The notes under the pieces are model-generated. The model did no database searches and was not told the DNA's origin. It saw only the letters and a program-made list of their open reading frames with translations. The position numbers were made by a program, and so were the translations under genes. Below are positions 1 through 51,507 of a DNA stretch of 64,000 nt, in pieces. Each line of letters begins with the position of its first letter. Within the stretch, counting starts at the first letter, position 1. Source of the stretch: Tomocerus qinae (Eukaryota > Arthropoda > Collembola > Entomobryomorpha > Tomoceridae). The stretch spans positions 28,272,001 through 28,336,000 of the forward strand of contig CM034546.1 in the NCBI GenBank assembly GCA_020055645.1, in the 5' to 3' direction.

Positions 1-19
1 GTATAGATGAAAAACTAAC

Positions 20-15086: not shown

Positions 15087-18000
15087 CTATAAGACTCCCG
15101 AAGTTTTAGCATATGTTAGGAACTTTTTAGCTCCTTCATAAGAGCTACCAGCTCTTTCATAGATATTTGGAATTACGTTAAGTATTTTCTGGCTAAATTT
15201 GCTATCAATTAACGTACCTCTAACAAAGTGCTTTGCCATGTAGATGTTATCAGTGTAAAGTGTCAATAGCAAATCATCACCAAAAAATGATAGACCTGCT
15301 TCGTCACCAATGTGTTTCTGCATTGTATTGATAAATTCATCTTGGCTCACAATCTTTAATTCGTAGCCTAGATCGGAAACTATATCTTTAAATTCATTGA
15401 CCTTGACAGTATTTGTGTGAATCAGATTGTACATTTCTGAGTCAACCATGTCATTAAACAAAAGGTCCATTGTTAATTCAGCTGCAATATCTGGCGACAT
15501 AAAAGACCAGCCTCTTTCATTATTACAAATAATACCTAACTTTATTGCAAGCAAAAATGAATTCATAACAAAATCTGTCCCAAAACTAAAATGTCCTGTT
15601 ACACTATTCCCAGCTATATTTGCATAACGAATGGCAATGCACGGGATTCCTCTAGAAATAGCTTGCCCAATTAATTTCTCGCCGACAAACTTTGTTAAAG
15701 CATAACCCAAGGCTATTCCTTCCCCGTTATTTTCATCATCAGGAAATTCTTCGTAAGCAAACCCAACGCCATTCAATTTATTTATAGCTCCAATAGACGA
15801 GGAATAAAATACTCGCTTTGTCTTAATATTTCCAGCAAACTTGAGAATATTAATTGTGCCCAGAACGTTGACTGCTCTTAAGTCAGTTGTATTAGGAGTC
15901 GGGCTGCAATACTCTTCGATAAAATTGACTTTGGCTGATATATGGAATACAGCATCCACGTCTCTAGATAGACAGATATATTCCCCTGGCGAAACTCCCA
16001 ACATATCCAGAGCCACATCGCCTTTTACTACAGAAACTCTATTAAGGTCTACTGTCAAATTATATTTCTTAAGATTTTTTATCACCCTTTCATAAGCTAA
16101 TTCTTGAGTGGAACTTCTAACTAAGCAAATGACAGTAACAAAAGGTTTTTTCAATAGATTTTCAAGCATATGCGCACCTAAGTGTCCTGTTCCACCTGTA
16201 AAAAGAACTTTTCGAATCTGACTTGCTTTCACATAATTTCCACTTCCTCTGATATCTTCTGGTAGAATTGAATCTTTTTTAATTAATTTTTTCAATTCAT
16301 CCTTATCAATTCGATGAGTTATTGGTTCCGAACTAACTGCAACCTTTCCCAATATTAAGTCAGTTAAATGTTCACTTAACTTACTAACACTTGGGTAATC
16401 AACTAATATATTATCACTTAAAGTGAAAGTGTCTCCCATTAAAGATTGCAGTTTGTTCTTTAATTCTACAGACATAAGAGAGTCTAATCCCATTTCATAA
16501 AACATTTGATGTTCATTAATTTGTTCTCTTTTTGGTATTTTTAATATATCTTTGATAAGACTACCCAATAAATCTTTAAAATATATTTTTGCATCCGCAA
16601 CTTTCAAAGATTTTATATCTTCTAATAATTTCCCTGACTCCAAACCAAGGTTATCCCCTCTTTTAGATTTTTTGTTGTCATCAAGATTATCATCGAAATA
16701 TTGAGACCAGACAACAGGGGACCAATAACCGGCTTCCTTTTCATTTAGATGCACTAGCCCAATATGGACTAAGTTGGGCCTGGACATAGCAAATTGTAGC
16801 GCTTCAATTCCTTGAGTAGGATTAAACGGATAAAGTCCAGGAATTTTAGAATTAGTAGCTGCACCTACATCTGACCAGGCTCCCCAATTTATAGATTGTG
16901 CAGCCAATCCAACCGAATGACGATAACGAGCAAATGCATCAAGAAAACAATTTGCTGAACAATGATTACTCTGTCCAAGTGGCGCAACTATGCCCGAAAC
17001 GGAAGAAAACAGAACAAAATATTGTATTGGCAAATGCTTTGTCAAATTGTGCAAATTTAAGCAACCTTGGATTTTAGCATTGAAAACAGGTTGATATTTC
17101 TCCCAAGTTTGATTGGCAAATACTGCATCGGAAAGAACACCTGCAGAGTGAATCACACCGTTAAGAGGAGGTAAGGAAAGCTTTTTGGAAGAAATTTCCT
17201 GAAACAAGTTTTGACATTGTTGCAGATTTCCCACGTCCACTTTTAATGATAAAACTTTACAGCCTATACTTCGCATTTTGTCTAAAGCAATAAGTGTTTG
17301 TGAACTCGGTAATGACCTTCCTATTAGTATCAAACATCCAGCACCGTAATCTGCCATCCATTTAGCTACTTCTAAACCAATTCCTCCTAACCCACCTGTA
17401 ATTAGATACGTTGCATTTTTGCTAAACAAAAATTCTTTTGTCTTTAACTCCCGACCAATATTTGAAATTTCTGGGTTACATAAAATAATTTTACCAATAT
17501 GCTGAGCTTTCATGAAATAATTTAGAGCGTTTCTAATATTTCTCATGTCAAATCTGGAGTAAGCTACTGGTTTAAATATGTCTTGGTTATAAACAACTTG
17601 AATACTTTCTTCTAACTCAGGGGCATCCACATGCTCGAGGTCAACGATTGTATATTCCACATCAGGTCTGAGTTTTTTGATATCTTCTGGTTGCCAAATA
17701 TTTACTTTTCCAATTTCAACAAATCGGGCATTTCTAGCACAATTTTCAAGTGTTGTCTCTTTAAAGCCTTCACCTGTCAATGAATTTAATACTACATCCA
17801 CTCCGTTGCCATTTGTTACATCACTAATTCCTTTTCCGAATGTCAAATCTCTGGAATTGAAAATATGCTCTACACCAAGAGATCTAAGATGACACTTTTT
17901 TCTTTCACTTCCAGCAGTAACTATAACTTTAGCTCCAATATAATTGGCAATTTGAATTCCATAAAGACCAACTCCTCCGGATCCTACATGAATTAAAACT

Positions 18001-21000
18001 GTTTCACCTCTTTTTAATTTGGCGACTGTAACTAGGCAGTAATGAGCAGTATGATGGCATAAAGAAATTGTGGCGGCCTCAAAAAAATTAAAATGAGAAG
18101 GTTTATGATAAACTGTACTTCTATCCTTAACAACGATATGACTTGCTGCAGTGCTAACACTCATTCCGAAAACTTCATCTCCAGCCTTAAATTTTGTAAC
18201 GCTAGTGCCTACTTTAGAAACAATTCCAGAAAAATCCGTACCCACCTCATCAAATAAAGTATGAAAGCCATCAGGTTTAAGGATAACTAAAACGTCCCTA
18301 AAATTAAGTGACATGGCTTTAATCATAACTTCGACATCATCTGGCTCTAATTGAGAATATTTTTTAGGTTTAAAGCTGACATCAGCAATCTTTTTTGTTG
18401 TTGGAATCCTCAGTTTATATCCTCCTTTAGGAAGCGTTAGAACATCATTATCTTCACTAAATTTTGAATAGCGAGGTGTAAACTTTTTACCTTTCCTATA
18501 GCTCATATAACTAATGTCGGGAAGGAAACATTCATAAAATAATTCTCTTGCATTATTTTCTATATCAATATCGTCAGGATCCATATCAACCAGAGATATA
18601 GACAATTTTGGGGCTTCATTAGTAAGACTCTTTAACATTCCCCAAACTACAGCTCCTGATGGATGAACATTTTCCTGATTCGTTGTAAACATTGCACCTC
18701 TTGTCACTCCAATTAACTTTGCATTAAGATTTCCGTTCTTAGCAAAATATTTACAAAAGTTGAGTGTTTTCATGTACAGTTCGTTTGCATAAGTAATCTC
18801 TGAATCCAGTGGCATTAAATAAAGCACTCGGAAAATGTCGTTTGTCTCTGTGATTCTATTTAATTCTTCTGTAAATTGAGCTTCGTCTAGCATATCCACA
18901 AATTGTACATTTTCGTTCGAATTTGATTTCACACCATGATTCAAGGCAATAACGCTTTGTCCAATATTTGAAACTAGTTGAATTACGCTTTTACTAAATG
19001 ATCCGCTATCGCAGAATATAAGCCAAGTCTTTGACTTGGTTGATACGGAAGATAAATTAAGTTGTCCTTTGGTCTTGGCAGCTAGAACGGATGAACTCTT
19101 AGCATCATTTGTTAAAAGATGTGACACTTCAAAACCATTTTCAGTCAGTACTCGATCCCAAATTTTTTTAGACACCATTGGATTCGTAGTCCTCAAATCA
19201 TAATCTCTAAATTTCCAATAACTGTCCAAAATACCATAAATGACATCTATTATCCTACTGGGTAATAGAACCTCCTGTAAGAGCAATATTCCTCCATCAA
19301 CTAGCAGTTTTCTAATGTTTTTTATCGATACCCTTAAACTTTCTGTTGCGTGAATAACATTCGAAGCGATAACAACGTCATAATGTTGTGGACAGAATCC
19401 CTGTATAGATGGATCGTTTTCAATGTCTAAAACTTTATAGTCAACCATATCAAACGATGATAATTCAATTTTTGCATTTTCAAAGAATTGAGCAGAAACG
19501 TCAGTAAAAGTATATTGGTAAGAAATTCCACTTTCCTGAAGAGCCTTTAAAATTGCTTTTGAAGTACCCGAACTTCCTCCGCCAATCTCAATTAATCTAA
19601 CAACTGCAATTTCATTATTTGAGATCATTTTAAAATCGTCAATCATTAAACAAAGACAATTTGCCATTGCTAAATTAGCTAAATAAACAATTAAACCTTT
19701 AGTGTAGAGATCTAAGATATTCATATCATTTCTTCCGAATAAAGCAGCTACAGGTTCAATCTTGACCGTTACTACATTCCATAAATTGTCTAAACATTTA
19801 TCCAATAGGTCTAATTCTATTGGTAATACCAATTTGATTGCCTGATGCAATTTTTCTAATTCACGTTGGATTTCTTCACTGTTAGGAAATTCTTTTACCA
19901 CTTTCCATTCTATGGAATCTCCTCCCATTCTAATTATATTTCCATCCTCAGTAAACATATCAATTATACGATTGAATAATTTGAAATGGTCAATGCACAC
20001 TATCCCTTGAACAATAATGTCTGTTGTTTTGTAAGTTTCTCCTAATCTCAGAAATATTCCATTTTCATTAAACATTTTTATCAATCTCAAGTGGATGTAG
20101 CGGTCGAAAAATAACTGTACTTCAGGATTGTATGATTCCAAGTCCTTCTCCATGGAGATTGCCAAATCAGGAATAATGTCAGCAAAGTCTTTCAAAGAAT
20201 TCATGTCCAAACGAGATTGCAAAGGCCCTAAACGGGGATTCCAGGTGTCTTTATATAAATCCGGCATTGATTTTTTCTGTCCAATAATTGTGTTCAAAAA
20301 TGAACCGACAGTTGTAGCTACAAAATGGACACCAACCATTGAAGACAATAAATTGAAATCCTGATCGTATAACGAAACGGAACCACTTTTGCTTTCAGCG
20401 TCCCAATTTGCATGTGCATATACAACGTCAGATGGAATTCCGCTAAATGCATAACAGTTTTCCATCCCTACAGGAAGCCACAATTGTTGGTCTTTCATTT
20501 CCATCGTTATCAATGCAATCGACTGCAGCATTGCATCTAATACTATTGGATGATAAATATATTCATCCAAATTCCAATTTGAATGTTTTATAGGAATAAC
20601 TGCAAAGGATTCATTTTCTAACAACCAAATTGATTCTATACTTCGAAATGCTTCTCCAAATACAAATCCGCTCTTCTGTATTTCGGTATAGAATTCATTC
20701 GAAGAATTTGGGTCTTTTAATTGCTCTTTGAACTTTTTCACATTATCATTTTTAAATTTTAATTTTGTATCTTCTTCCTCTAGTAATGTTACTGTACCTG
20801 CTGCATGTTTTTTCCATCCATGTAATTTATTAAAGATGTAAATATCAACTACCAAGAAATAATTTTGACCTTCCTGTGATTTAGCAATTACCTGCATCTC
20901 GTATTGCTTTTTCTCCTCTAATTCAAATGCACATTCGAGAGTAAAATCTTTAACGTGTATCTCCTTTGAAGTATTTCCTACATGTAGCAAATCCTTACCT

Positions 21001-23888
21001 ACAGCCAAAATAATTTCCATAAATCCTGCGCCTGGCATAATAACAAGATTTGCTACTAAATGGTCTTTGAGAAATTCAAATTCCGTTAGGTTCAAATGGT
21101 TTGTGTAAACAGTTTCACTTTTGTTTACTAATGAGACCTTCTTTCCTAAAAGTGGGTGGACTACATTGATTTCATGTTTCTCTGGGATACTAACCCAATA
21201 TTTCTGTCTTTGAAATGGATATGTCGGCAGCTCTAGTTTCTTTCTATTTTCTGGTGGATATATTGAAGACCAATTAATATTTGCCCCATTTAAATATAAA
21301 CTTTTTAAAGTTTCTATTAACACTTCCCAGCTATCTTTTTTATGCTGTAGAGTTGGAAGCCAAAGTGCATTTTCGACGACAGCATTCTTTACTCCCAAAG
21401 TTATCAAAATGGGACGTGGTCCTATTTCAATAAAAGTATTGCAACCATTTTCAGCAAGAGTCTGCATTCCTTTTTGGAAATTAACAGGATCTCTTGCATG
21501 TCTAAGCCAATATTTCCCATCTTTCATTTCATCTGCTGCCAAAAGTGATCCAGTAGTTCCAGAAACATATTGACAACTTGGGTTATTATATTTTATCTTA
21601 CTTGTGACGTGATTAAACTTGGAAAGAATTCCTTCGATATCCTGAGAGTGGAATGCATGAGGAGCTGCTAAAATCTTACAACGAATTTTATTTTCTGTAC
21701 AGATCTGTTCGCATTTTTTCAGTGATTCCATCCTACCTGCCACGACAATATCTTCTGGAGAGTTAACCACAGCTATATCTAACCATTCTTTTCCATTCTT
21801 TTTGGTGAATTTTGAAATTAATTCCTTCCCTTTCTCCTTAGAACACTGAATAGCCAACATTCCACCAGTTGGCAAATCAGATATTAGTTGACTGCTTTTA
21901 GTTAGCAAAGTCAATGCATCTTCAAGATCAACAATTTCCGACGCTACTGCAGCGGCAAATTCTCCGATGCTGTGACCCAAAACAAAATCTGGTTTCACAC
22001 CTAAACTATAAATTAATCTCAAAAGAGCATATTGAACACAAAAGATTGATAACTGACACGGTACACATTTCTGTATTAAAGACCCGACTTTGTCTTTCCA
22101 CAAAACGTCTTTTATTATTATACCTGTCTCTCTTTCTATAATATTTTCACACTTGTCAAATTCACTTCTAAAAATAGAATTACTTTTATACAAATTATGA
22201 GCCATTCCTAAATATTGGGAACCTTGCCCTGTGAAAAGAAATGCTATTTTCAGCGATTCTTTTGAAGACGGATTGGCAAAGCTGTCAGGATTTAAAGCTT
22301 TTAATAGATCGGAATTGTCTTTTCCGGTGAAACTTGCTCTATAATTAAAATGTGCCCGACCAGTATTAGCAGTACAGCACAAGTCACTGGAATTAGAGTC
22401 TGGATTATCCTTTAAAAAGTTCCTATAACGGTTAATTAATTCGCCTAGAGCATTTTCATTTGGTGCAGACAGATTTAAAATGTGATGGGTCATTGCTCCG
22501 TCAATAGCATTGCTTTTAATTTGACTTAATTCATTTTCTGCAGGTGGTTCTTCTAACAGAACGTGAACATTTGTCCCACTAATTCCAAACGAGCTCACAC
22601 CTGCTATTCGAGCCCTTTTGTTATTTCTTTTCCAAGGTGTTTTATCTAATGGAATAATAGCCGGAATAGATTCTAAATTGATACTTGGATTGAGAGTGTC
22701 AAAATTCAGGTGGGGAGGAATGGCTTCATGCTTCAAAGATAGTATTACTTTAATAATGCCCGCCAACCCAGCAACTGATTCAGTGTGCCCTATGTTAGTC
22801 TTTACAGAGCCAATAACTAAAGGCTTTTCCCTTTTTCCAGCATAACATGTAGACAATGCTGCAAATTCCACCGGATCTCCAACTGGAGTTCCAGTCCCAT
22901 GTGCCTCTAAATAATCGACTTCTTCAGGGCGAACTCCTGAATTTTTAAGAGCTTCCCTAACAGCTATCTCCTGACATATTTTACTCGGAGTGCCAAAACT
23001 AGATGAAGTTCCTTCGTTACTCATTCCACTCCCTCTGACAATTCCCAAAACTCGATCTCCATTTTTTACTGCATCACTAAGTCGTTTTAATACGATAACC
23101 GCCATTCCTTCAGCCCGTCCAAATCCATTTGCCTTTTCATCAAAAGTTTTACAATGACCATCTTCAGATAATACTGGATATCCCGTTCCATCAATATCAA
23201 CTATATTAGTTCCCATCACTAATCCTAAGTCTGTTTCTTTCCGTTTTAGACTCTCACATGCCAAATGCAAACCGACCATGGAGGACGAGCATCCAGATTC
23301 AGTTGCAATGTTGGGTCCATTTAGGCCCAGAAAATAAGCAATTCTAGCAGAAGTCGCAGAAAATGAATTGCCAAGGACGATACTGTGGAATGCATTCGTA
23401 TTGGCTTTCACCAGTCTTTCGTATTCCATTTTCCAAACTCCGGTGAAGACTCCAGTTTTACTCCCCTTAAGTGAATGTGGATTGATGGCTGCATTCTCTA
23501 AAGCTTCCCATGCTACTTCCATCAATATTCTTTGTTGGGGATCAATCGTTTCTGCTTCTCTTGGACTGATTCCAAAGAACCTGGCATCGAATTCGTCGAC
23601 TGGACATTTTAGAAATCCTCCATTGATTCCTTTAACCTTCTTTTCGTCAACATCAAAAAGTTCATAACGTTCCGGGGGTGTTGGCCGAATTCCATCTCCG
23701 CCTCTCAATAATAACTCCCAAAACTCTTCAATGTTGTTTGCTTCTGGAAAACGGCAACTGTATCCCACAATTGCAACTGAATTTTTGTAATAATTCCGCC
23801 GGTTCAAACTTCGATTGTTTCCTTTGATCGTAGGTTTTTCATTGGAATTAATTTCACATCGACATGGATCCCAAAGTTTGATTATTTT
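15087..23888 (-). CDS. PKS-1: intact highly reducing type I polyketide synthase with terminal thioester reductase (main exon)
   Basis: Multidomain iterative-type PKS. Residues are counted from the TTG codon at 23807. KS ~10-435 with Cys173 (in ESGCSSS), His303 (EAHGTGTP) and His341 (KTNIGHTES). AT ~525-835 with Ser613 (GHSIGE) and His720 in HAFHS, a malonyl-type motif. DH ~890-1170 with His916 and Asp1091 (DAMLQ). C-methyltransferase with SAM motif IEIGGGSSGTS ~1404. Pseudo-KR ~1590-1760. ER ~1800-2110 (HVGSGGVGLYG). KR ~2130-2320 (LITGGLGGIG), with His2282 where the catalytic Tyr is expected. ACP Ser2443 (GLDSLMS). Reductase ~2530-2880 with GGTGHLG and Tyr2702/Lys2706 (YALTK). The reductase implies NADPH-dependent release as aldehyde or alcohol. 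The exon has no ATG before residue ~94; in-frame coding runs upstream to a splice acceptor (AG at 23890-23889, TAG just before), so the start lies in upstream exons. Probably cytosolic. The only undamaged copy here. Confidence 0.93.
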   Translation of the reverse strand, partial: KIIKLWDPCRCEINSNEKPTIKGNNRSLNRRNYYKNSVAIVGYSCRFPEANNIEEFWELLLRGGDGIRPTPPERYELFDVDEKKVKGINGGFLKCPVDEFDARFFGISPREAETIDPQQRILMEVAWEALENAAINPHSLKGSKTGVFTGVWKMEYERLVKANTNAFHSIVLGNSFSATSARIAYFLGLNGPNIATESGCSSSMVGLHLACESLKRKETDLGLVMGTNIVDIDGTGYPVLSEDGHCKTFDEKANGFGRAEGMAVIVLKRLSDAVKNGDRVLGIVRGSGMSNEGTSSSFGTPSKICQEIAVREALKNSGVRPEEVDYLEAHGTGTPVGDPVEFAALSTCYAGKREKPLVIGSVKTNIGHTESVAGLAGIIKVILSLKHEAIPPHLNFDTLNPSINLESIPAIIPLDKTPWKRNNKRARIAGVSSFGISGTNVHVLLEEPPAENELSQIKSNAIDGAMTHHILNLSAPNENALGELINRYRNFLKDNPDSNSSDLCCTANTGRAHFNYRASFTGKDNSDLLKALNPDSFANPSSKESLKIAFLFTGQGSQYLGMAHNLYKSNSIFRSEFDKCENIIERETGIIIKDVLWKDKVGSLIQKCVPCQLSIFCVQYALLRLIYSLGVKPDFVLGHSIGEFAAAVASEIVDLEDALTLLTKSSQLISDLPTGGMLAIQCSKEKGKELISKFTKKNGKEWLDIAVVNSPEDIVVAGRMESLKKCEQICTENKIRCKILAAPHAFHSQDIEGILSKFNHVTSKIKYNNPSCQYVSGTTGSLLAADEMKDGKYWLRHARDPVNFQKGMQTLAENGCNTFIEIGPRPILITLGVKNAVVENALWLPTLQHKKDSWEVLIETLKSLYLNGANINWSSIYPPENRKKLELPTYPFQRQKYWVSIPEKHEINVVHPLLGKKVSLVNKSETVYTNHLNLTEFEFLKDHLVANLVIMPGAGFMEIILAVGKDLLHVGNTSKEIHVKDFTLECAFELEEKKQYEMQVIAKSQEGQNYFLVVDIYIFNKLHGWKKHAAGTVTLLEEEDTKLKFKNDNVKKFKEQLKDPNSSNEFYTEIQKSGFVFGEAFRSIESIWLLENESFAVIPIKHSNWNLDEYIYHPIVLDAMLQSIALITMEMKDQQLWLPVGMENCYAFSGIPSDVVYAHANWDAESKSGSVSLYDQDFNLLSSMVGVHFVATTVGSFLNTIIGQKKSMPDLYKDTWNPRLGPLQSRLDMNSLKDFADIIPDLAISMEKDLESYNPEVQLFFDRYIHLRLIKMFNENGIFLRLGETYKTTDIIVQGIVCIDHFKLFNRIIDMFTEDGNIIRMGGDSIEWKVVKEFPNSEEIQRELEKLHQAIKLVLPIELDLLDKCLDNLWNVVTVKIEPVAALFGRNDMNILDLYTKGLIVYLANLAMANCLCLMIDDFKMISNNEIAVVRLIEIGGGSSGTSKAILKALQESGISYQYTFTDVSAQFFENAKIELSSFDMVDYKVLDIENDPSIQGFCPQHYDVVIASNVIHATESLRVSIKNIRKLLVDGGILLLQEVLLPSRIIDVIYGILDSYWKFRDYDLRTTNPMVSKKIWDRVLTENGFEVSHLLTNDAKSSSVLAAKTKGQLNLSSVSTKSKTWLIFCDSGSFSKSVIQLVSNIGQSVIALNHGVKSNSNENVQFVDMLDEAQFTEELNRITETNDIFRVLYLMPLDSEITYANELYMKTLNFCKYFAKNGNLNAKLIGVTRGAMFTTNQENVHPSGAVVWGMLKSLTNEAPKLSISLVDMDPDDIDIENNARELFYECFLPDISYMSYRKGKKFTPRYSKFSEDNDVLTLPKGGYKLRIPTTKKIADVSFKPKKYSQLEPDDVEVMIKAMSLNFRDVLVILKPDGFHTLFDEVGTDFSGIVSKVGTSVTKFKAGDEVFGMSVSTAASHIVVKDRSTVYHKPSHFNFFEAATISLCHHTAHYCLVTVAKLKRGETVLIHVGSGGVGLYGIQIANYIGAKVIVTAGSERKKCHLRSLGVEHIFNSRDLTFGKGISDVTNGNGVDVVLNSLTGEGFKETTLENCARNARFVEIGKVNIWQPEDIKKLRPDVEYTIVDLEHVDAPELEESIQVVYNQDIFKPVAYSRFDMRNIRNALNYFMKAQHIGKIILCNPEISNIGRELKTKEFLFSKNATYLITGGLGGIGLEVAKWMADYGAGCLILIGRSLPSSQTLIALDKMRSIGCKVLSLKVDVGNLQQCQNLFQEISSKKLSLPPLNGVIHSAGVLSDAVFANQTWEKYQPVFNAKIQGCLNLHNLTKHLPIQYFVLFSSVSGIVAPLGQSNHCSANCFLDAFARYRHSVGLAAQSINWGAWSDVGAATNSKIPGLYPFNPTQGIEALQFAMSRPNLVHIGLVHLNEKEAGYWSPVVWSQYFDDNLDDNKKSKRGDNLGLESGKLLEDIKSLKVADAKIYFKDLLGSLIKDILKIPKREQINEHQMFYEMGLDSLMSVELKNKLQSLMGDTFTLSDNILVDYPSVSKLSEHLTDLILGKVAVSSEPITHRIDKDELKKLIKKDSILPEDIRGSGNYVKASQIRKVLFTGGTGHLGAHMLENLLKKPFVTVICLVRSSTQELAYERVIKNLKKYNLTVDLNRVSVVKGDVALDMLGVSPGEYICLSRDVDAVFHISAKVNFIEEYCSPTPNTTDLRAVNVLGTINILKFAGNIKTKRVFYSSSIGAINKLNGVGFAYEEFPDDENNGEGIALGYALTKFVGEKLIGQAISRGIPCIAIRYANIAGNSVTGHFSFGTDFVMNSFLLAIKLGIICNNERGWSFMSPDIAAELTMDLLFNDMVDSEMYNLIHTNTVKVNEFKDIVSDLGYELKIVSQDEFINTMQKHIGDEAGLSFFGDDLLLTLYTDNIYMAKHFVRGTLIDSKFSQKILNVIPNIYERAGSSYEGAKKFLTYAKTSGVL

Positions 23889-25015
23889 CTATTATCAGAA
23901 TAATTCCATTAGAGTACATTAGCAAAAATAATGTATATACCATTTTTCAATGTAGATGTTAGCTAAGCTATGTCAATTTATTATATTCAGTAAAAATATC
24001 TAGAACGAAAATACAAGTTCATGTATGTAGTATGTAGGTTATGCAAATGTAGAGATTTAATATGGAAAAGGCAAAGGGAAAATTATTCAACGACAACAAA
24101 GAAGATAATTCAAAAAGTCAAGGAAACCCCAAATACATTATTGATTACACAAATAAAGTATTTCATACACTCAGTAAACAGATATTGGCATGCGTATAAA
24201 TTCCTAATGATTATGTAGAGCGGAGTAAAACGTTTGTCAACAAATTTTACTTCACAAATCTAAGTTCTTCTGATGTTATAACTATATATTTATGTAGAAT
24301 TAAGTATCCGTTTTCGAAATTATTTATTTCTATTAAATGTTAATACGTCATGACTTGGTCATTGCTGAAATAATTTTCATTATCTCAGAGTCATTGTCTT
24401 TGCATTATCTCTATCGACAGTTTGCATAATCTACGTAGGTTAAAAAAATCGTGTTTTTGTTTATGCCGTTTTTACACTGAAACCCATTCTAAATTGGTTT
24501 CCGTGTAAAAGTATACTTTATTTAGAATTTAATTTCCATAGTTACTTTTGTATTTTTCTTTCTCATGCGATGCGATGTAACTTCGATGCTTTGCTTTTGC
24601 CTATAAAAATTTGGAATAGTCTACTAGATGTAATAAACTACTAGACCCCAGCACAAATCTTAGGGGAAAATCCAAGTTTAACATTGACCTGCCCTATTAA
24701 CCCCGTGGCAGTTTTATTCGAATATGGATTATGTCTCTTAGACTTTATTGTTATATAAGACCGAAGTTTGATCTCATAAGAAAGAATAATAAGGATAACT
24801 GAATCTCTGAGAATTCATCAAATGCAGTTTCGTTTACTGCCTCTGTATCATAATCGTAAACTATCATTTACAATATCGTAAACTTAAAACTGCATTATCG
24901 TAAAATGCCAATGGAACTATTGTAAACTACTCTATAATATATATATATGTCTTATATATAAAGTATTATGTGCAAATATATTGAGGGAAAATAAGAATTT
25001 TATTGGATTTTTTAC
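23889..25015 (-). other. Putative phase-0 intron joining the GT8-like exons to the PKS-1 exon
   Basis: 1127 bp, AT-rich, with a short AT microsatellite near 24935. It begins GTAAAAAATC after the last GT8-like exon and ends with AG before the AAAATAATCAAACTTTG start of the PKS exon. The same arrangement occurs in unit 2 (51508-52899). I see no start exon for the PKS here. Confidence 0.5.
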
Positions 25016-27609
25016 TTTAGTTCCAGCATCTTCATCCATAGCTATTTTTGAAGATGCGATGGTTTGCAATTCTCTGATTAAAAGCAATAAAATATTACTC
25101 TATGATTAAAATTCCAAAAGAAACAAAAGTCTTTTAAAAATTAAATACCGTTGTTCGGTGTATTCAAAGTCAGCGCTGTAAATCCTGGGCATTTCCAATT
25201 TCGGTTCATTGCTAAATACGTCAGACGAATTTGTAAACAGATGGGACCCTAAAATATAACATTAATTCATATTGTGTGGGTAGCCTTTTTAAATTACTTG
25301 AACAAAGGAAATGGAAAGTACTTACAAGAGAAGTGTGGTGTATTTGTAAGCTTTAGAATTTTATTATATATTTCCGAATTTGGTTTCATTACCAAAAAGG
25401 AGGGAAAATAAGAATTTTGTGTTTTTGACGTATCCGCTATGTAATATTCTTTGCCCACTTCGAATAATTCGTCACAATTTTGTAAAATCTATTTTCATAA
25501 ATATTCAGTTATAAATATCAGTTCTATATCTACATTTTTATTGTTATTACCTAATCTTTATTCGGCCTGATTTAAATAAAATAATCATTCCATGGAATCT
25601 TTGGAATCATACAAAGAAGGATTTTCTTTTTAACATTTTTATTACTGCAAATTCCTCTCCATAATCAATTTTCCATACCGCAGCGTCCAGCAATCGCGGA
25701 ACAGGGAATATATAGGTCAAGACATATAAATATTATGTTGAGTCGTATTAGGAGGAAGCTAGGTATATCCTTAGGTTTATTTTAAAATTGCATTGGCTGG
25801 AAAGACCCGTCTTTATTTTTATTACAGCATAAATAGTAAATATATAATATGGTGAATACGAATTATGGCTCATATTGATAAAGGAATGTCAATTGAAACC
25901 TCTTTTCTATTTTTGTTTGCACCAGGCATAAAATTACAGGTGTTATTGTTATGCATAATTTAGTACTACAGTAGTAGTGTATGTTAAATGTTAAGTGTCT
26001 TTTATGTTGTGAAAAAAACATCACCATCCCGAAATAAAATTGGCAATTTAAAAATTATAAGCTGAAGTTATGAAAATTAGGAATTATATAATGGCCGTTA
26101 ATTTAATTCACTTAATATAAATGGTTGTTAAAAGATTGGAAATAATCACCTTGCATTTTTGATTAATGATCGCAATTTTGGTGTACATTTCCATGTTAAA
26201 GGCATAAATTTTCATAAGATCTAATGTTCGCAAATTTCCTTTCCGGTGGTATTCATTCAAGTCCATTTGAATAACCGAATCAAAACATTGAGCCAAAAGT
26301 TGCCTGAAATTGAAAAAGCATCAGTTTTTAATTTGAGAATAACGCATTTAAATCATTAGTGTTCATTACCGAAGGTCATCTCCTAGGTCATTAGCAATTA
26401 GAACAATGGTATCTGCTAACGTAATGACTTGTGAAAGTGATGTTCCCAAAATTGCTGCTTGCCGTGCGGTTTCTTCATCAATGGCTGCCGTAACCCACGC
26501 ATATCTTGATTTTTCTATATAAAATAATGGAATGTAATTTTAATTCCTGTAAATATTTAAAATGGTTATATTTATACATGTAGCAACGCGGCACTTAAAG
26601 AATGGTCATATAACTTGTATTCTAAAGCTTGAAGAAAAGTCGACGAAATCAGAAGAGATTTCTGTTGTTTACCTTGCACGGTTGCACGGGGCATAATATT
26701 TTCTATGGACAGTGCATTGTGATTTTTGTTTATTTCGAAAAAGCACTGAATATCTCGTAGAAGGTCATATGAAACCATTCTGAAAATCCATTCGCTTCAA
26801 TGCTTTTTTGAGTGAAATAAAAATCACAATGCACAGTCCATAGAAAATAATATGCTGCGTGCAGGGTAAACGATAGTGTTAGACAGTCTTCAGATTTCGA
26901 AGACTGGGCTGCAAGATACTGTCATGCTGGAATAGGGAGTTATCTTACCACTCTTTTGTAAAAGTTTAGTAGAATTGATTCTACTTTTCGTTTGGCTGTG
27001 AAAAGAGTATCCATCCATTTTTGGTGACCTTAATCCAATGTACATGAATTAAATTAAATCATTTTTCCCTGCCAAGCGAAAAATGGATGGAGGCACTTTT
27101 CACTGCCAAAAGAAAAGTGGATTAATATCTTTTGTGTCCTTAAGGGGCGATATGTTGATCAGTGTGAAGAATGCAGGCACGTATCCAGGAAATTGACCAA
27201 GGGGGTGCCCACCAAAATATATTGGGAAAACAAAGATATATTCGCACAAACCGCGAATTTTTTTTGGATTTTTAACCTTTTTTGACAATAAAATCGTATT
27301 TTTCTGGAAACTTAGTGGGCACCGCCGGCCCCCCTTTGGATACGTGCTAGGTAGAATGTATCACATTTTTACCATAAATGTGTTTAAAAGCAATTCATAT
27401 TAGTAAGAATCTTTTTAGTTAATTTCTAGTTCCCCACCATTAAAACAAATCGACCAAATGAATAAATCCAAATGGTCTGAAACGAAAAAAATCCAATACA
27501 AAATTTAAGCAAATTTAATCGACTTTTTCAAAAACCCTTACTCTATTACTTGCTACTCTTACCGCTTTTTTATGTCTTTTTAAGTAAAAGAATACTTACC
27601 GAATTTCAT
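25016..27609 (-). CDS. Glycogenin-like GT8 domain, six exons, unit 1 (probable N-terminal part of the PKS-1 gene)
   Basis: Exons: 27600-27609 (ATG AAA TTC G), 26370-26514, 26150-26303, 25326-25488, 25149-25248, 25016-25073; 210 codons, no stop, all phases match. The protein resembles the GT8 glycogenin catalytic domain: an N-terminal SRYAWVTAAIDEE strand, an SLSQ...IVLIA segment, FDSVIQMDLNE (family FDEVIxVDxLD), LDLMKIYAFNMEMYTK (family TLTKLxxWSLTQYTK), then ILQNCDELF and FPSFLVMKPNSEIYNKIL. The DxD motif that binds Mn2+/UDP-sugar should sit just before ILQNCDELF; here it reads NQK. The later GGDQG region is also not recognisable. It is therefore likely a pseudoenzyme. The last exon ends in phase 0 at a GT, matching the phase-0 acceptor of the PKS-1 exon, so I favour one fused gene. 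A separate small gene with an unseen 3' end remains possible. Confidence 0.7.
26669..26870. repeat. Long inverted repeat in intron 1 of unit 1
   Basis: About 80-bp imperfect arms (26669-26753 and 26791-26870) sharing CATAATATTTTCTATGGAC and GTGCATTGTGATTTTT in opposite orientations, around a ~40-bp loop. It would fold into a hairpin in the pre-mRNA. Likely a foldback MITE. Confidence 0.65.
26980..27120. repeat. Short inverted repeat
   Basis: Arms of about 41 bp (26980-27023 and 27077-27120), roughly CTACTTTTCGTTTGGC...TCCATCCATTTT against its reverse complement, separated by ~53 bp. It lies in the same intron as the preceding hairpin. Confidence 0.6.
27174..27350. mobile_element. hAT-like MITE (177 bp)
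   Basis: The left end CAGGCACGTATCC is mirrored at the right end by GGATACGTGCTAG (11 of 13 bases pair). Flanking 8-bp near-duplications are GAAGAATG (27166-27173) and GTAGAATG (27351-27358), 7 of 8 identical. Eight-bp duplications fit hAT transposition. The ends also carry GGGGGTGCCCAC/GTGGGCACC arms. No coding sequence. Confidence 0.55.
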
Positions 27610-30917: not shown

Positions 30918-31470
30918 ATTTGTCAAATGCTAGGAATTTTTTTAGCTCCATCATAAGAGCTGCCAATTCTTTCGTAAATATTTGGAATTGCGTTAATGAC
31001 TTTCTGGCTGAATTTGGTATCCATCAACGCACCTGTAACAAAATGTTTTGCAATGTAGATATTATCAGTGTAAAGATTTAGAAAAAAATCCTTGCTGAAA
31101 AAAGATAGGCCAGCTTCGTCACCGACGTGTTGCTGCATTGTACTGATAAATTTATCTTCACTAACAATCGTTAAATTATAGCCTAGATTGGATACTATAT
31201 TTATAAGTTCATTGACGTTTACAGTATTTGTGTTTAACAGATAGTACATTTGTGAGAGTTTTCATGTACAGTTCGTCACCATTAGTAATCTCTGAATCCA
31301 GCAGCACTAAATAAAGCACTTTACAAACATCATTTACTTCTGTGATTCTATTTAGTTCGTCTGTGAACGTCTAGCATGTTCACAAACTGTACAGTTTGGT
31401 TTCCAGTATTTGAATTGGATTTCAGACCGCATGTTTCAGATTTATTACGTCTTGCCCTAATTTGGTACTT
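30918..31470 (-). pseudogene. Relic A: PKS fragment with a massive internal deletion
   Basis: The 3' part (30918-31249) matches the C-terminus of the thioester-reductase domain (NTNTVNVNEL, NIYIAKHFVTGALMDTKFSQ, SSYDGAKK) but is frameshifted at its end. At about 31250 it jumps directly to the pseudo-KR region (DSEIT...ELYMKTL) and continues upstream to about 31470 with frame damage. ER, KR, ACP and most of the reductase are deleted. Same strand as the intact PKS genes. Confidence 0.85.
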
Positions 31471-31935
31471 AATGATATAATACAAAACATTCACATTCAA
31501 TGTATGTCCACATGTTTATTAGCAAAACTGGGGGTTTAACAGTACTAGGGGCCACTAGTAAAAAACTAAATAACTTTAAAACGAATTGGTATCTTTTAAT
31601 TTCAGTCCAATAATTTCTACAGCCCCTAAATAATTACCTAAAACATCAAAGCTTTAATAGTCAAGTTACTTGGGCCGAGGTCTTTTTCAAGTAGAAGACA
31701 TAGTTGATTTAGTTGATTTCTACAGTAATTTACATTAATTGTATTTCCTTGCACCGAGTCTTATAATTGCACAAGCCCATTAGTATTAGCTACAACCCAA
31801 ACCCTTGCTCAGCGGACAACGTAACTTCTGGTTGTAATTCTTTGGAGATTGTTACTTTATATTATTCCCTACGAACATAAAATTACATATTGAATCAAAT
31901 ATTCAAAAACATAAGTGATCATAATGGTTGGGTAC

Positions 31936-39806: not shown

Positions 39807-39830
39807 TTTAATGAATTTCAGATTTCACAG

Positions 39831-45300: not shown

Positions 45301-47881
45301 GGAATTGTGGAAGCTTCATATAAATTGAAATGAGATGGCTTGTGATAAATTGCACTTGTTTCCTTCTGCACGATATGGCTTGCTGCAGTACCCATACCAA
45401 ACCCGAAAACCTCATCACCTGGTTTAAATTTTGTTACACGAGAACCAACTTTTGAAACAATTCCAGCAAAATCAGAACCCATCTCATCATATAAACTCCG
45501 AAAGCCATCAGGTTTTAAGACAATAAAAATGTCTCTAAAATTAAGTGACATGGCTTTTATCACAACTTGGACATCGTCTGGCTCCAATGGAGGAGTTTTA
45601 GAAGGTTTAAAACTGACATCTGCGATTCTTTTGGTCGTTGGAATCTTGAGCTTATATCCTCCTTGTGGTAGACACAGAACGTCATATTCTTCAATACACC
45701 TTACATATTGCGGTATAAATTTCTTACCTTTCCTATAGCAAACAAAATTGGTTCCAGATTGAAAACATTCAAAATATATTTCTTTTGCATCATTTTGTAC
45801 ATCAATATCGTCGGGATCCATATCTACCAGAGACAAAGACAGTTTTGGAACTTCAGTTGTAAGACTTTTAAACATACCCCAAATTACAGCTCCTGAAGGA
45901 AGTACATTTTCCTGATTCGTTGCGTACATTGCACCTCTAGTCACTACAACTAATTTGACATTGGGATTTCCGCTTTTAGTAAAATATTTACAAACGTTGA
46001 GAGTTTTCATGTACAGCCCGTTAACATTAGTTAACTCAGAATCTAGCGGAATTAAGTAAAGAACTCCACAAATATCATTCAATTCCATGATTCTATTTAG
46101 TTCTTCCGTGAACTGAAATTCGTCCAGCATGTCCATAAATTGTAAGGTTTTGTTTTCAGTATTTGAGTTGGATTTCAGGCTGTGCTTCAGGGTTATCATG
46201 GTTTGTCCATTATTTAAAAATAATTTGATCACACTTTTATTAATTGTTTCCTCTCCGCAAATTGCAAGCCAAGTCTTTGACGTGGATGACACAGAAGATA
46301 AATGGAGTCGGACATTGGCCTTTGCACCTAGCACTGATGAACTTTTAGCGTCAGATGACAAAAGACATGACAGTTCGAAACCATTTTCAGTCAGTACTCG
46401 ATCCCATATATCTTTAGATACCATTGGATTCGTAGTCCTCAAATCGTAGTCTTTAAATTTCCAATAGCTGTCCAAAATACCAAAAATAATATCTACTAAT
46501 CTATGAGGTTGTATAAACTCTTGTAGAAGCAATATTCCTCTGTCAGTCAACAACTTTCTAATATTTCCTACCGATACCCTTAAGTCCTCTGTTGCATGAA
46601 TAACGTTTGAAGCGACAACAATGTCATAGTGGTATGGACAAAATCCCTGTTCAGATGGATCTTTCTCAATATCTAATACTTTGTAGTCTACCATTTCAAA
46701 CGATGACAATTCCATTTTAGCATTGTCAAAGAATTGAGACGAAACGTCGGTGAAAGTATATTGGTAAGAAATTCCTCTGTCCTGAAGTGCCTTTAAAACC
46801 TCTTTTGACGTGGCCGCACTTCCTCCGCCAATCTCAATTATGCGAACAACTGAGCTGTCTTTACACGATACAATGTCATCAAGGATTAAACCGATAAACT
46901 TTCCCATCCTAATATTAGCCAAAGAAATAACTAAACCTTTAGTGTAGAGATCTAAGATATTCATATCCTTTCTGCCAAATAATGCAGCTACAGGTTCAAC
47001 CTTCTCGGTTATTACATTCCACAAGTTGTCCATGCATTTGTCAAGTAACTCCAAATCTACTGAGACTACCATTTTTATTGCCTTTTGCAGTTTTTCTAAT
47101 TCAAGTTTAATTTCTTGCTTTGATGGAAATTCCTTCACCACTTTCCAATCAACGGAATATTTTTTCTTTTTAATTACATTTCCGTCCTCGATAAACATCT
47201 CAATTATACGATCGAATAATTTGATATGGTTAAGGGGTATTAAATTATCCACCATATATAATGTTGTATTGTAAATTTCTCCCAATTTCAGATACATTCC
47301 ATTTTGATTAAACATTTTTATCAATCTCAAGTGAATGTAGCGGTCGAGCTGATATTGTACTTCAAGATTGTATGACTCCATGTCCTTCTCCATGGAGATT
47401 TCCAAAGCCGGGATAACATCAGCGAAGTCTTTCAAAGTTTGTATCTGCAACCGAGATTGCAACGGGCCTAACCGAGAACTCCAAGTGTCGATATATAAAT
47501 CCGGCATTGATTTCTTCTGTCGGGTAATTGTGTTTAGAAATGAACCAACAGTTGTCGATACAAAATGGACACCTTCCATCAAAAATAATAAATTGAAATC
47601 CTGGTCGTATAACGAAACGATCCCACTGTTTGTTGTAGCATTCCAACTCCCATGTGCATAGACGACGTTAGATTGAATTTCACCAAAGGTGTAGCAGTTT
47701 TCTACTCCAGCAGGAAGACACAATGTTTGGTCTTTAATTTCCATCATTAATAATGCAATTGACTGCAACATCGATTCTAATACAATTGGATGATAAATAT
47801 ATTCTTCTAAATTCCAAGTGAAGTGTTTTATAGGAATCACTGCAAAAGCTTCGCTTCCCAACACACAAATGGATTCAATGC
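42327..47881 (-). CDS. PKS-2, 3' part: DH(duplicate)-MT-ER-KR-ACP-thioester reductase
   Basis: Continues the PKS-2 gene after the frame break at about 47881. In order: a second copy of the DH C-terminal half (IYHPIVLESMLQ, with the catalytic Asp replaced by Glu), MT (IEIGGGSAATS), pseudo-KR, ER (HVASGGVGLFAVQIA), KR (LITGGLRGIG; SNHCAANC with His at the catalytic Tyr position), ACP (GLDSLMSVEL) and TR (GGTGHLG, YALTK). The frame is open from 48113 to the stop at 42327, but the part above 47881 is out-of-frame DH sequence of the upstream half. Bases 47453-47881 are identical to 63414-63842 in PKS-3, whereas the flanks differ. Unless the joint is an assembly error or spliced out, PKS-2 cannot make one full-length synthase. 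Confidence 0.85.
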
Positions 47882-50800
47882 ATTGATTTTTTGTCTTGGA
47901 TAATTTTTTCCAAAAATGAACCAACAGTTGTCGATACAAAATTGACACCAACCATTGAAAACAATAAATTGAAATCCTGGTCGTATAACGAAACGTCTCC
48001 ACTGTTTGTTGTAGCATTCCAATTTGCATGTGCATAGACGACGTCAGATGGAATTTCGCCAATTGTGTAGCAATTTTCGATCCCCTTGGGAAGCCACAAT
48101 TGTTCAGGTTCAATTTTCATCGTTACTAATGCAATGGATTGCAACATCGAATCCAGCACAATTGGATGATAAATATATTCTTCCAAATTCCAAGTTGAAT
48201 AGTTTATAGGAATAACTACAAAAGCTTCGCTTTCCGACAAGCAAATTGAATCTATACTTTGAAATGTCTCACCGAATTGGAAACCACACTTCTGTATTTC
48301 GGAGTAAAACTCATTAGAAGGTTTCAATGCCTTCAATCTATCTTTAATTCCTTCAACATTTTTATTTTTAAATTTCAAGTTTGAATCTCCTTCTTCCAAT
48401 AATTTCACCGTCGCCCTTGCATGTTTTTTCCATCCATGTAATTCATTGAGGATGTGAACATCAACCACCATCAAATTATTCTGGCCTTCTTTTGGCGTGG
48501 CAACAACTTGCATCTCATAATGTTTTCCTTCCTCTAGCTCAAACGGAGATTCAAGAATGAAATCTTTTACATGTAATTGTTGTGAGTTATTTCCAACTTG
48601 CAGCAAATCTTTTCCTACAGCTAAAATAATTTCTAAGAATCCGGAGCTGGGCATAATTACAAGATTTGCTACTAAATGGTCCTGGAGAAATGCAAACTCC
48701 GTCAGGTTCAAATGATTTGTGTACACAGTTTCATTTTTGTTAACTAATGAGACTTTCTTTCCTAAAAGTGGGTGGATTATGTTTGTTTCATGTTTCTCTG
48801 GGATATTAACCCAATATTTTTGTCTTTGAAATGGATATGTTGGCAATTCTAGTTTCTTTCTATTTTCTGGCGGGTATATTGAAGACCAATTAATATTCGC
48901 CCCATTTAAATATAACTTCCTTAAGCTATCTAATAACACTTCCCAGTTATCTTTATTATGCTCTAGAGTTGGAAGCCAAAGTGCATTTTCAACGACAACA
49001 TTCTTAACTCCCAATCCTAACAAAGTAGACCGAGGTCCTATTTCAATAAAAGTATTGCAACCATTTTCAGCAAGGGTTTGCATTCCTTTTTGGAAATTAA
49101 CAGGATCTGTTGCATGTCTGAGCCAATACTTTCCATCGCTCATTTCATCTGCTGCTAATATTATTCCAGTAGTTCCAGAAACATATTGGCAACTTGGGCT
49201 TTGGTATTTAATTTTACTTGTTACATGACTAAATTTGGAAATAATTCCTTCGATATCGTGAGGCAGGAATGCATGAGGGGCTGCTAAGATCTTGAAACGA
49301 ATTTTATTTTCTTTACAGATCTGTTGGAGTTTTTTCAGAGATTCCATTTGTCCCGCTACGACAATTTCTTCCGGAGAATTAACCACAGCAATATCCAGCC
49401 ATTCTTTTACATACTTTTTGGAGAATGTCGAAAGTAATTCTTTCCCTTTCTCCTTAGAACACTGAATATTTAACATTCCACCAGATGGCAATTCGGATAT
49501 TAGTTGACTGCTTTTAGTTAGCAAAGTCAGAGCATCCTTAAATTCAAGGATTCCAGACGCTACTGCAGCTGCAAATTCTCCGATACTGTGACCCAATACA
49601 AAATCTGGTTTTACACCTAGGCTAAAAAGTAATTTCAGAAGGGCGTATTGAACACAAAAGATTGATAATTGACACATTACATATTTCTGAATAAAGTCGC
49701 CGTCTTTGTCTCCCCAAAGAACTTCTTGTATTACTATGCCTGTTCTTATTTTAATAATCTTTGCACATTCGTCAAAACAATTTCTAAATATACAGTTACT
49801 TTTATACAAACCATGAGCCATGCCTAAATACTGGCAACCTTGTCCCGTGAAGAGAAATACTATTTTGAGTGAATCTTTAGACATAATACTGCCCACGCTT
49901 TTAATCTTCAAAGCTTGTGCTAAATCGGAATTGTCTTTTCCGACGAAACTTGCTCTGCAACTGAAATGTGCCCGACCAATATTTGCAGTATAGCATAAAT
50001 CACTGGAATCAATCGTTGGGTTACCTTCTAGGATGTTGGTGTAAGATTTAATTAACTCGCTCAGGGCATTTTCACATGTCGCAGACAAATTCAAAATGTG
50101 ATGGGTCATTTCTTCTTCAATGGTTATACTTTCAATTGGGTTGTATTGATTTTCTGTATGTGGTTCTTCTAACAGTACGTGAACATTTGTCCCACTAATT
50201 CCAAACGAGTTGACACCTGCTATTCGAACTCTTTTATTATTTCGTTTCCAAGATTTTTTATCTAATGGAATAATGGCTGGAATAGATTCTAAGTTGATAC
50301 TTGGATTAAGAGTTTCAAAATTCCTGTGGGGCGGAATAGTTTCATGCTTTATTGCTAGTATTACTTTAATAACACCCGCCAATCCTGCAACTGACTCAGT
50401 GTGGCCAATGTTTGTCTTCACAGAGCCAATAACTAAAGGTTTTTCCCTTTTTCCAGCATAACATGCCGACAAAGCCGAAAATTCTACTGGATCTCCAACT
50501 GGAGTTCCAGTCCCGTGTGCTTCTAAAAAATCAACTTCCTCAGGGCAAACTCCGGAATTTCTTAATGCACCTCTTATTGCAATTTCCTGACCTATTTTAC
50601 TCGGAGTTCCAAAACTAGACGAAGTTCCTTCGTTACTTATCCCACTCCCTCTGATGATTCCCAAAACTCGATCTCCATTTTTTATTGCATCAGTAAGTCG
50701 TTTTAACACGATGACTGCAATTCCTTCTGCCCTTCCAAATCCATCCGCCTTTTCATCAAAAGTTTTGCAATGGCCATCCTCAGACAAAACTGTCATTCCC

Positions 50801-51507
50801 TCTCCATCAATATCAAATATGTTTGCTCCCATCACCAATCCTAAATCCGTTTCATTCCTTTTCAAACTCTCACAGGCTAAATGCAACGCGACCATGGAAG
50901 ACGAACATCCAGATTCAGTTACAATGTTTGGTCCATTGAGACCAAGGAAATAAGCAATTCTAGCAGAAGTTGCAGAAAATGAGTTTCCAAGCACGACATT
51001 TTGGAATGCTTTTGTTTTTGTTTTCACTAGTCTTTCATATTCCATTTTCCAAACTCCGGTGAAGACTCCAGTGTTGCTCCCTTTTAGAGAATGTGGATTG
51101 ATAGCTGCATTTTCCAGTGCCTCCCATGCTACTTCCATCAACAATCTTTGTTGAGGATCAATCATCTCTGCTTCTCTTGGACTGATTCCAAAGAACTTGG
51201 CATCAAATTCATCAATTGGACATTTCAGAAATCCTCCATTGATTTTCTTTATCTTCTTTTCGTCTAAATCAAAAAGTTCGTAACGTTCCGCTGGAGTTTG
51301 TCGAATTCCATCTCCTCCTTTTATTAATAACTCCCAAAACTCGTCAATATTATTTGCTTCTGGAAAGCGACAACTGTGTCCCACAATCGCAATAGAATTT
51401 TTGTAGTAATTTCGCCGCTTTAATGTTTGATCATATAGACGGTGATGAGGATTACCATGTTGCATATTAATTTTGCCCCAACATGGATTACAAAGTTTGG
51501 TTATTTT
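47875..51507 (-). CDS. PKS-2, 5' part: KS-AT-DH, ends prematurely
   Basis: The exon begins after a splice acceptor (CACAG ending at 51508) in phase 0 with AAAATAACCAAACTTTG, like PKS-1. KS has ESGCSSS, EAHGTGTP and KTNIGHTES. AT has GHSIGE, but the HAFH motif reads HAFLPH (49264-49266), so the catalytic His is Leu. DH has His in DHLVANLVIMP and Asp in HPIVLDSMLQ. Just after DKKSM (where PKS-1 continues PDLY) the frame meets a stop at 47875-47877, because a second copy of the DH C-terminal half follows in another frame. There is no ATG at the exon start, so the start codon must be in an upstream exon, probably the GT8-like exons at 52900-54668. Confidence 0.85.
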   Translation of the reverse strand, partial: KITKLCNPCWGKINMQHGNPHHRLYDQTLKRRNYYKNSIAIVGHSCRFPEANNIDEFWELLIKGGDGIRQTPAERYELFDLDEKKIKKINGGFLKCPIDEFDAKFFGISPREAEMIDPQQRLLMEVAWEALENAAINPHSLKGSNTGVFTGVWKMEYERLVKTKTKAFQNVVLGNSFSATSARIAYFLGLNGPNIVTESGCSSSMVALHLACESLKRNETDLGLVMGANIFDIDGEGMTVLSEDGHCKTFDEKADGFGRAEGIAVIVLKRLTDAIKNGDRVLGIIRGSGISNEGTSSSFGTPSKIGQEIAIRGALRNSGVCPEEVDFLEAHGTGTPVGDPVEFSALSACYAGKREKPLVIGSVKTNIGHTESVAGLAGVIKVILAIKHETIPPHRNFETLNPSINLESIPAIIPLDKKSWKRNNKRVRIAGVNSFGISGTNVHVLLEEPHTENQYNPIESITIEEEMTHHILNLSATCENALSELIKSYTNILEGNPTIDSSDLCYTANIGRAHFSCRASFVGKDNSDLAQALKIKSVGSIMSKDSLKIVFLFTGQGCQYLGMAHGLYKSNCIFRNCFDECAKIIKIRTGIVIQEVLWGDKDGDFIQKYVMCQLSIFCVQYALLKLLFSLGVKPDFVLGHSIGEFAAAVASGILEFKDALTLLTKSSQLISELPSGGMLNIQCSKEKGKELLSTFSKKYVKEWLDIAVVNSPEEIVVAGQMESLKKLQQICKENKIRFKILAAPHAFLPHDIEGIISKFSHVTSKIKYQSPSCQYVSGTTGIILAADEMSDGKYWLRHATDPVNFQKGMQTLAENGCNTFIEIGPRSTLLGLGVKNVVVENALWLPTLEHNKDNWEVLLDSLRKLYLNGANINWSSIYPPENRKKLELPTYPFQRQKYWVNIPEKHETNIIHPLLGKKVSLVNKNETVYTNHLNLTEFAFLQDHLVANLVIMPSSGFLEIILAVGKDLLQVGNNSQQLHVKDFILESPFELEEGKHYEMQVVATPKEGQNNLMVVDVHILNELHGWKKHARATVKLLEEGDSNLKFKNKNVEGIKDRLKALKPSNEFYSEIQKCGFQFGETFQSIDSICLSESEAFVVIPINYSTWNLEEYIYHPIVLDSMLQSIALVTMKIEPEQLWLPKGIENCYTIGEIPSDVVYAHANWNATTNSGDVSLYDQDFNLLFSMVGVNFVSTTVGSFLEKIIQDKKSMH

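Follow-up and report, generated by a model that had tools for sequence, protein, structure and literature searches.

Gene Structure of Unit 1

The stretch of the Tomocerus qinae (Collembola) genome analyzed here, called the window below (64,000 nucleotides; contig CM034546.1, positions 28,272,001 to 28,336,000), carries on its minus strand a large polyketide synthase (PKS) gene, unit 1, preceded by six short exons related to glycogenin; judged from the sequence, the two very probably form one gene for a single fused protein with a non-catalytic N-terminal head. The PKS exon of unit 1 (15087..23888, minus strand) is an open frame of 8.8 kb and 2933 residues, which encodes a 36-residue linker followed by the ketosynthase (KS), acyltransferase (AT), dehydratase (DH), C-methyltransferase (MT), enoylreductase (ER), ketoreductase (KR), acyl carrier protein (ACP) and thioester reductase (TR) domains, and ends with a stop codon. 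As described in a first-pass annotation of the window, it starts directly after an AG, in phase 0 (23888-15087). The Pfam KS domain begins at residue 36 of this exon, three in-frame stops lie immediately above the acceptor at 23888, and the first Met is residue 123, deep in the KS, and not residue ~94 as first given. Because of the stops above the acceptor and the late first Met, the exon requires an upstream coding exon.

All six head exons lie on the minus strand. Exon 1 (27600..27609) reads ATG AAA TTC G and ends in phase 1 at the donor GTAAGT; the same ATG and donor are present in a second copy of the gene in the window, unit 2, and in both units an in-frame TAA starts 9 bases 5' of the ATG. 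Exons 2 to 4 are glycogenin-like, and exon 5 lies past the alignable part of glycogenin. These four exons have the same length in both units and differ by no indel: exon 2 (26370..26514, KSRYAWVTAAIDEET...) of 145 bases is 82.1% identical between the units, exon 3 (26150..26303), which reads NQK at the position of the glycogenin DxD motif, is 80.5% identical over 154 bases, exon 4 (25326..25488, LQNCDELF...) 71.8% identical over 163 bases, and exon 5 (25149..25248) 75.0% identical over 100 bases. Exon 6 (25016..25073) contains no stop codon and ends at the phase-0 donor GTAAAA; its counterpart in unit 2 is 67 bases long, 9 more, with the same donor. Intron 6 (23889..25015, minus strand) separates the glycogenin-like exons from the PKS exon; the phase-0 donor that the first-pass annotation had placed 1.1 kb from the acceptor, after six exons with an ATG and no stop, is indeed found, at 1127 bases.

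Joined in frame with the PKS exon through the predicted 25016/23888 splice, the six head exons (27609-25016) give in the gene model a product of 3143 residues. Its predicted order is glycogenin-like domain-KS-AT-DH-MT-ER-KR-ACP-TR, with a head of about 210 residues encoded by six short exons. The exon borders were chosen by eye as GT-AG; their weight rests on the homologous positions of unit 2, where GT-AG borders can likewise be chosen for every one of the six introns.

A Second Copy of the Fusion in the Window

The head exons of unit 2, missed in the first-pass annotation, were found by tblastn upstream of the second PKS exon (start at 51507). They occupy 52900..54668 of the minus strand (54668-54665, 54088-53944, 53874-53721, 53362-53200, 53132-53033 and 52966-52900) and are followed by the 5' part of the PKS exon (47875..51507, minus strand), whose frame is broken in the DH region at a 376-base tandem duplication (47538-48246). 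One part of this duplication, 383 bases long, is 99.7% identical to a third PKS copy, unit 3 (63465-63847), in surroundings that are about 85% identical. This near-identity could stem from a recent gene conversion, from unequal crossing-over or from a join made in assembly.

At homologous positions of units 1 and 2, all six introns are bordered by GT and AG, have equal phases and end in the same phase-0 junction with the PKS exon. The two heads are 62% identical at the protein level. Exons 2-5 differ by no indel in 562 bases, whereas 6 such events were counted in the 228 alignment columns of the three short introns, a rate at which 14.8 indels would be expected in these exons; the length differences in exons 1 and 6, of 6 and 9 bases, are both multiples of 3. 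Intron identity ranges from 46 to 73%. Intron 6 is 46.0% identical, its sole well-matching part being the first 27 bases (88.9%), and comparison of the two units revealed no further conserved exon in it. BLAST homology between the units ends 12 bases above the PKS acceptor, and in unit 2 the nearest in-frame stop lies 9 codons above that acceptor.

The omega value between the units is 0.63 for the head (bootstrap range 0.42-0.97; below 1 in 983 of 1000 bootstraps), 0.92 for the linker (36 codons) and 0.20 for KS-DH. Thus, of the pre-KS extension of ~37 residues, at first described as conserved with the second PKS, the length holds (about 36 residues) and the conservation is only loose. A frame that is kept under loose amino-acid constraint is to be expected where a segment is translated in front of a required PKS, which supports the fusion; taken by itself, the kept frame is no proof of a function for the head.

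A Folsomia candida Protein with the Same Architecture

A search with the PKS exon protein matched 1098 proteins, the best 120 of which were used for comparisons by domain. Among them is P0045, an annotated protein of the springtail Folsomia candida, 3195 aa in length and 34% identical to the PKS exon over 99% of it. In this set P0045 is the best match for the stretch after the MT, for the ER and KR, for the ACP (marginally, 39.3 versus 38.6 bits) and for the TR (139 versus 71). In a KS tree of 62 rows, consisting of units 1 and 2 and the best 60 of 286 KS domains covering at least 380 positions, with no animal fatty acid synthase (FAS), P0045 groups with the KS domains of units 1 and 2 (SH-aLRT 99). 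The Pfam KS starts at residue 246 of the predicted 3143-residue fusion and at residue 245 of P0045.

The segment preceding the KS in P0045 is colinear with the heads of units 1 and 2 (BLAST E 6e-4), and in Smith-Waterman comparisons with the two window heads it reached z scores of 10.7 and 9.1, with none of 1000 shuffles scoring as high in either case. Its addition to the window heads improved the E-value of the profile against glycogenin from 1.7e-11 to 5.1e-14. A structure search with a model of the first 207 residues of P0045 gave 41 matches at E <= 0.001, with glycogenin at ranks 1-40 and the Skp1 sugar transferase at rank 41. A profile match of P0045 at 5.5e-88 was set aside as evidence, P0045 having itself been in that profile. 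The fusion of ~3140 residues proposed at the outset is therefore repeated in unit 2 and matched by the full-length P0045, and the order GT8-like-KS-AT-DH-MT-ER-KR-ACP-TR (GT8, glycosyltransferase family 8), first reported as unfamiliar, is supported and is not unique to this locus.

The Glycogenin-Like Head

Searched against solved glycogenin-1 structures, the unit 1 head gave an E-value of 3.1e-10 and the heads of both units, as a profile, the 1.7e-11 given above. The window heads align with glycogenin residues ~5-155 (of ~260), and the alignment of the three-head profile, P0045 included, ends at ~120; the glycogenin-like part is followed by about 55 residues that align with nothing, and then by the linker. 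The DxD motif binds metal; where glycogenin has DAD, unit 1 has NQK, unit 2 NQN and P0045 DCA, so that the motif is broken in all three heads. The acceptor tyrosine lies in the later part of the catalytic domain, and in the window heads nothing recognizable as this C-terminal catalytic part was found beyond the aligned glycogenin region. By sequence, the head is a truncated, broken-down relative of glycogenin. The label GT8-like given to it at first accordingly holds for ancestry and not for an activity.

N107, C108, D109, L111, F112, K83 and further positions are shared without change by the three heads. The counterpart of K83 in the glycogenin alignment is the lysine in LTKLHCW, which would correspond to Lys86 of the human protein, part of the UDP-glucose site.

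The PKS Body

The domains of the unit 1 PKS exon, all on the minus strand, were assigned by Pfam as follows: the KS at 22698..23783, with its Cys in ESGCSSSM; the AT at 21330..22241, with GHSIGE; the DH at 20310..21158, with the His motif DHLVANLVIMPG, in which Asn stands where Gly is usual; the MT core (PF08242) at 19284..19592; the ER at 17481..18344; the KR at 16869..17414, with GQSNH in place of the usual GQANY; the ACP at 16365..16568, with GLDSL; and the TR, presumed to serve reductive release, at 15522..16199. The last assignment also draws on solved relatives, the best being MxaA (the nearest) and a type I PKS chain of reductase length, and on an NCBIfam thioester reductase model, which gave 186 bits, under its cut-off of 213.

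The motifs used for scoring, which we take to be those of the active sites, were found in unit 1 for the KS (Cys and both His), the AT (GHSIGE and HAFH), the DH (His and Asp), the ACP (GLDSL) and the TR (GYALTK). The nucleotide-site patterns for the MT and TR missed unit 1, whose translation does contain IEIGGGSS and TGGTGHLG. The Tyr-to-His change in the KR was considered as a sign of a dead domain and this was dropped, because His occupies that position in six of the ten database comparators inspected as well, each with GQANH in at least one KR.

In the comparison with solved structures (the best 60 of 108 matches, with no reference sequences of animal FAS-like PKSs, AFPKs, among them), the unit 1 KS scored 407 bits with CurL, 576 bits with a putative PKS (the sum of two stretches) and 241 bits with a fatty acid synthase. 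Among solved structures it is thus nearer by sequence to bacterial PKSs than to animal FAS, and the closeness of the KS to animal FAS that marks AFPKs was not seen in this set of solved structures. The domains KS, AT, DH, MT, ER, KR and ACP occur in the order of a bacterial-type reducing type I PKS. The body is probably an iterative, C-methylating, reducing synthase that would extend, C-methylate and reduce an acyl chain and then release it reductively as an aldehyde or alcohol. Springtail cuticular lipids are unusual; one report (PMC10825826) includes among them cyclopropane hydrocarbons and ascribes these to the fatty acid pathway. In the present analysis nothing links the unit 1 gene to any cuticular-lipid product.

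Origin of the Fusion and Alternative Readings

The fusion of head and PKS looks real and old. In the reading preferred here, one seven-exon gene would encode the 3143-residue protein, its head being derived from the N-terminal portion of an animal glycogenin gene with introns and its body from a bacterial-type, intronless PKS gene taken up from a microbe; the acquisition is suggested by the bacterial-type KS and by the confinement of the PKS to a single exon. The microbial gene would have come to sit 3' of a glycogenin-like gene or fragment, from which it may have obtained promoter, start codon and splice donor, and the join, present in what would be at least two springtail lineages, would later have been duplicated locally together with the whole gene. 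The simplest history seems to be horizontal acquisition of the PKS followed by the gain of 5' exons from the animal.

Several observations weigh against this reading. The splice between 25016 and 23888 rests on a DNA gene model in the window and, in F. candida, on an annotated protein, P0045 being a database annotation with the head-PKS junction as predicted there. Pfam recognized no family in the three heads (with E up to 1 for unit 1 and up to 10 for all three), dS is similar and not equal in the head (0.38) and KS-DH (0.58), and the PKS frame of unit 2 is interrupted, so the window offers one intact and one disturbed example. Among the 120 proteins compared, P0045 is not the top match everywhere, being second for the AT and DH and thirteenth for the MT; its KS is only fourth of 286 KS domains and stands on a long branch (1.58) in the tree, for which reason long-branch attraction is possible. 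Its head is only 18% identical to the window head and alone reaches E 0.12 against solved glycogenins, which are still its top match. The fold model of this head has low confidence, with a mean pLDDT of 49.9 and higher values over the first ~90 residues, and is not independent of the window, since four window exon fragments were in its alignment. When the 36-residue linker was used alone as a query, neither P0045 nor any other of the 120 proteins was matched. A direct head search among long proteins (582 candidates) gave none at E <= 0.001; the same was found among short proteins (136 candidates), and these negatives say little because the long-protein search missed P0045 as well.

Given a fused protein, the part played by the head has to be considered. 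There is roughly an even chance that it serves as a non-catalytic N-terminal domain, in folding, dimer contact or partner docking, and this is only somewhat likelier than the variant in which the head is a passenger. The passenger variant, which is less probable and still a serious candidate, regards the head as leftover 5' exons that give promoter, ATG and donor and are translated, with no role of their own, as their frame is tied to the PKS. The frame is kept and the amino acids are fairly free, with omega far higher in head and linker than in KS-DH; the catalytic motif is broken, the head shares 18% of residues with that of P0045, and selection for an intact PKS downstream would be enough to hold the frame. 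On the other hand, omega below 1 in nearly all bootstraps and the residues common to the three heads, K83 among them, leave room for a structural role, and both lineages have retained the head at nearly equal length. It is also conceivable, and rather unlikely, that the head has acquired a function within the synthase, for instance as a platform for docking or priming that binds a partner from glycogen metabolism or acyl transfer; were that so, an animal carbohydrate-priming protein would now start or position lipid-chain synthesis in springtails.

The fused-protein reading can be set against one of two neighbouring genes, in which a glycogenin-like gene has its own stop past the exon 6 donor and the PKS has an undetected first exon. 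If the donor were unused, the frame would end 27 codons further on in unit 1 (stop at 24934-24932) and 39 in unit 2 (52782-52780); the first 27 bases past the donor are the well-matching ones, and the PKS exon of unit 2 has an early ATG (residue 15), lacking in unit 1. However, the resemblance between the read-through tails covers only about 9 codons, and the tails differ in length; the 27 similar bases need not be coding, since introns 1, 4 and 5 (though not intron 2) likewise begin alike in the two units. Inspection of intron 6 revealed no conserved ATG exon: frames running from ATG to a phase-0 GT number 12 and 23 in the two units, and 200 base shuffles gave on average 12.4 and 18.4. In Folsomia, moreover, head and PKS are in one annotated protein with an N-terminal segment of nearly equal length. 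Two separate genes are therefore improbable.

A working glycosyltransferase or self-glucosylating priming domain, which would put sugar on the PKS or its product, might be expected from the descent of the head and from its K83, aligned with the LTKLHCW lysine; sugar transfer by it is nonetheless very unlikely, as the DxD position is broken in three heads of three and the alignment with glycogenin stops near residue 155 of ~260, with the later part carrying the acceptor tyrosine unrecognizable. An assembly or contamination artefact joining unrelated sequences, to which the near-identity of units 2 and 3 as a possible assembly join might point, can hardly be credited, with the same head-to-PKS order at two places 27 kb apart, with introns diverged to 46-73% identity, as well as in a protein annotated from another species.

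Other Features of the Window

Unit 3 (58262-63999) is broken near 60109-60136 into two overlapping frames, and its 5' end lies outside the window. Two more broken PKS remnants, at 33657-37850 and 30938-31481, lack KS-AT, and tblastn detected no glycogenin-like head near either of them. Between the PKS copies, at 38457-39824 on the minus strand, there are two open frames rich in hydrophobic stretches, without a Pfam match above cut-off, which we presume to resemble an arthropod chemoreceptor. GMC oxidoreductase-like exons occupy 1-7839 on the minus strand; the piece 6767-6937 passes Pfam PF00732, and two other GMC-like pieces in this interval had no Pfam match. A 29-base satellite of 79 copies, about 98% alike, is located at 4319-6608.

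Comparison with Known Systems

Glycogenin is a stand-alone, catalytic protein. Glycogenin-1 (GYG1, glycosyltransferase family 8) resembles the window head over its first ~155 residues and is the fold match of the Folsomia head; the window head differs in being truncated, with a broken DxD, joined to a PKS and below Pfam recognition. The closest counterpart of the whole protein is P0045, named in the database as 'phenolphthiocerol synthesis polyketide synthase type I Pks15/1-like', a name that omits the head. Like unit 1, it has the same Pfam domain order with a C-terminal thioester reductase and, in the ~244 residues that precede the KS, a glycogenin-like head; it differs in sequence, with 34% identity in the PKS and 18% in the head, and has DCA for NQK at the DxD position. 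The type I PKSs P0098 and P0051 share with unit 1 the body domains KS-AT-DH-MT-ER-KR-ACP and their order, and differ in beginning at the KS and in having no thioester reductase by Pfam, P0051 with a second KS-AT; other proteins of the list (P0015, P0063) carry a reductase family.

AFPKs are, like unit 1, PKSs encoded by animals, and differ from it in that the unit 1 KS is of the bacterial PKS type; a few arthropod sequences are reported to end in reductive domains (PMC10764717). For Folsomia candida, two papers report PKS genes as acquired (PMC5490193; PMC10764717), with 30 type I PKS clusters in the former (PMC5490193). Among the matches listed in the open-licence literature on glycogenin, GT8 and springtail PKSs, none describes a PKS carrying a glycogenin-like domain. 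The head has probably been overlooked because in its decayed state Pfam does not recognize it. Since many springtail PKS genes are of unknown product, the true protein starts matter to anyone expressing them.

Chimeras of horizontal gene transfer (HGT-chimeras), in which animal and horizontally acquired sequences are fused, have been described from arthropods, with the highest predicted number in Folsomia candida (PMC13389597); the words polyketide, glycogenin, ketoacyl and glycosyl do not occur in the main text of that source, and its data tables could list this gene. The likeness of unit 1 to these chimeras would lie in animal-derived and putatively acquired parts in one frame, here by gene model and annotated protein. 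As far as these sources extend, such a fusion would belong to a described arthropod class, to which the glycogenin-like N-terminal domain on a PKS adds a domain type, and it would offer a testable case of a bacterial-type single-exon gene made expressible in an animal by taking over host 5' exons.

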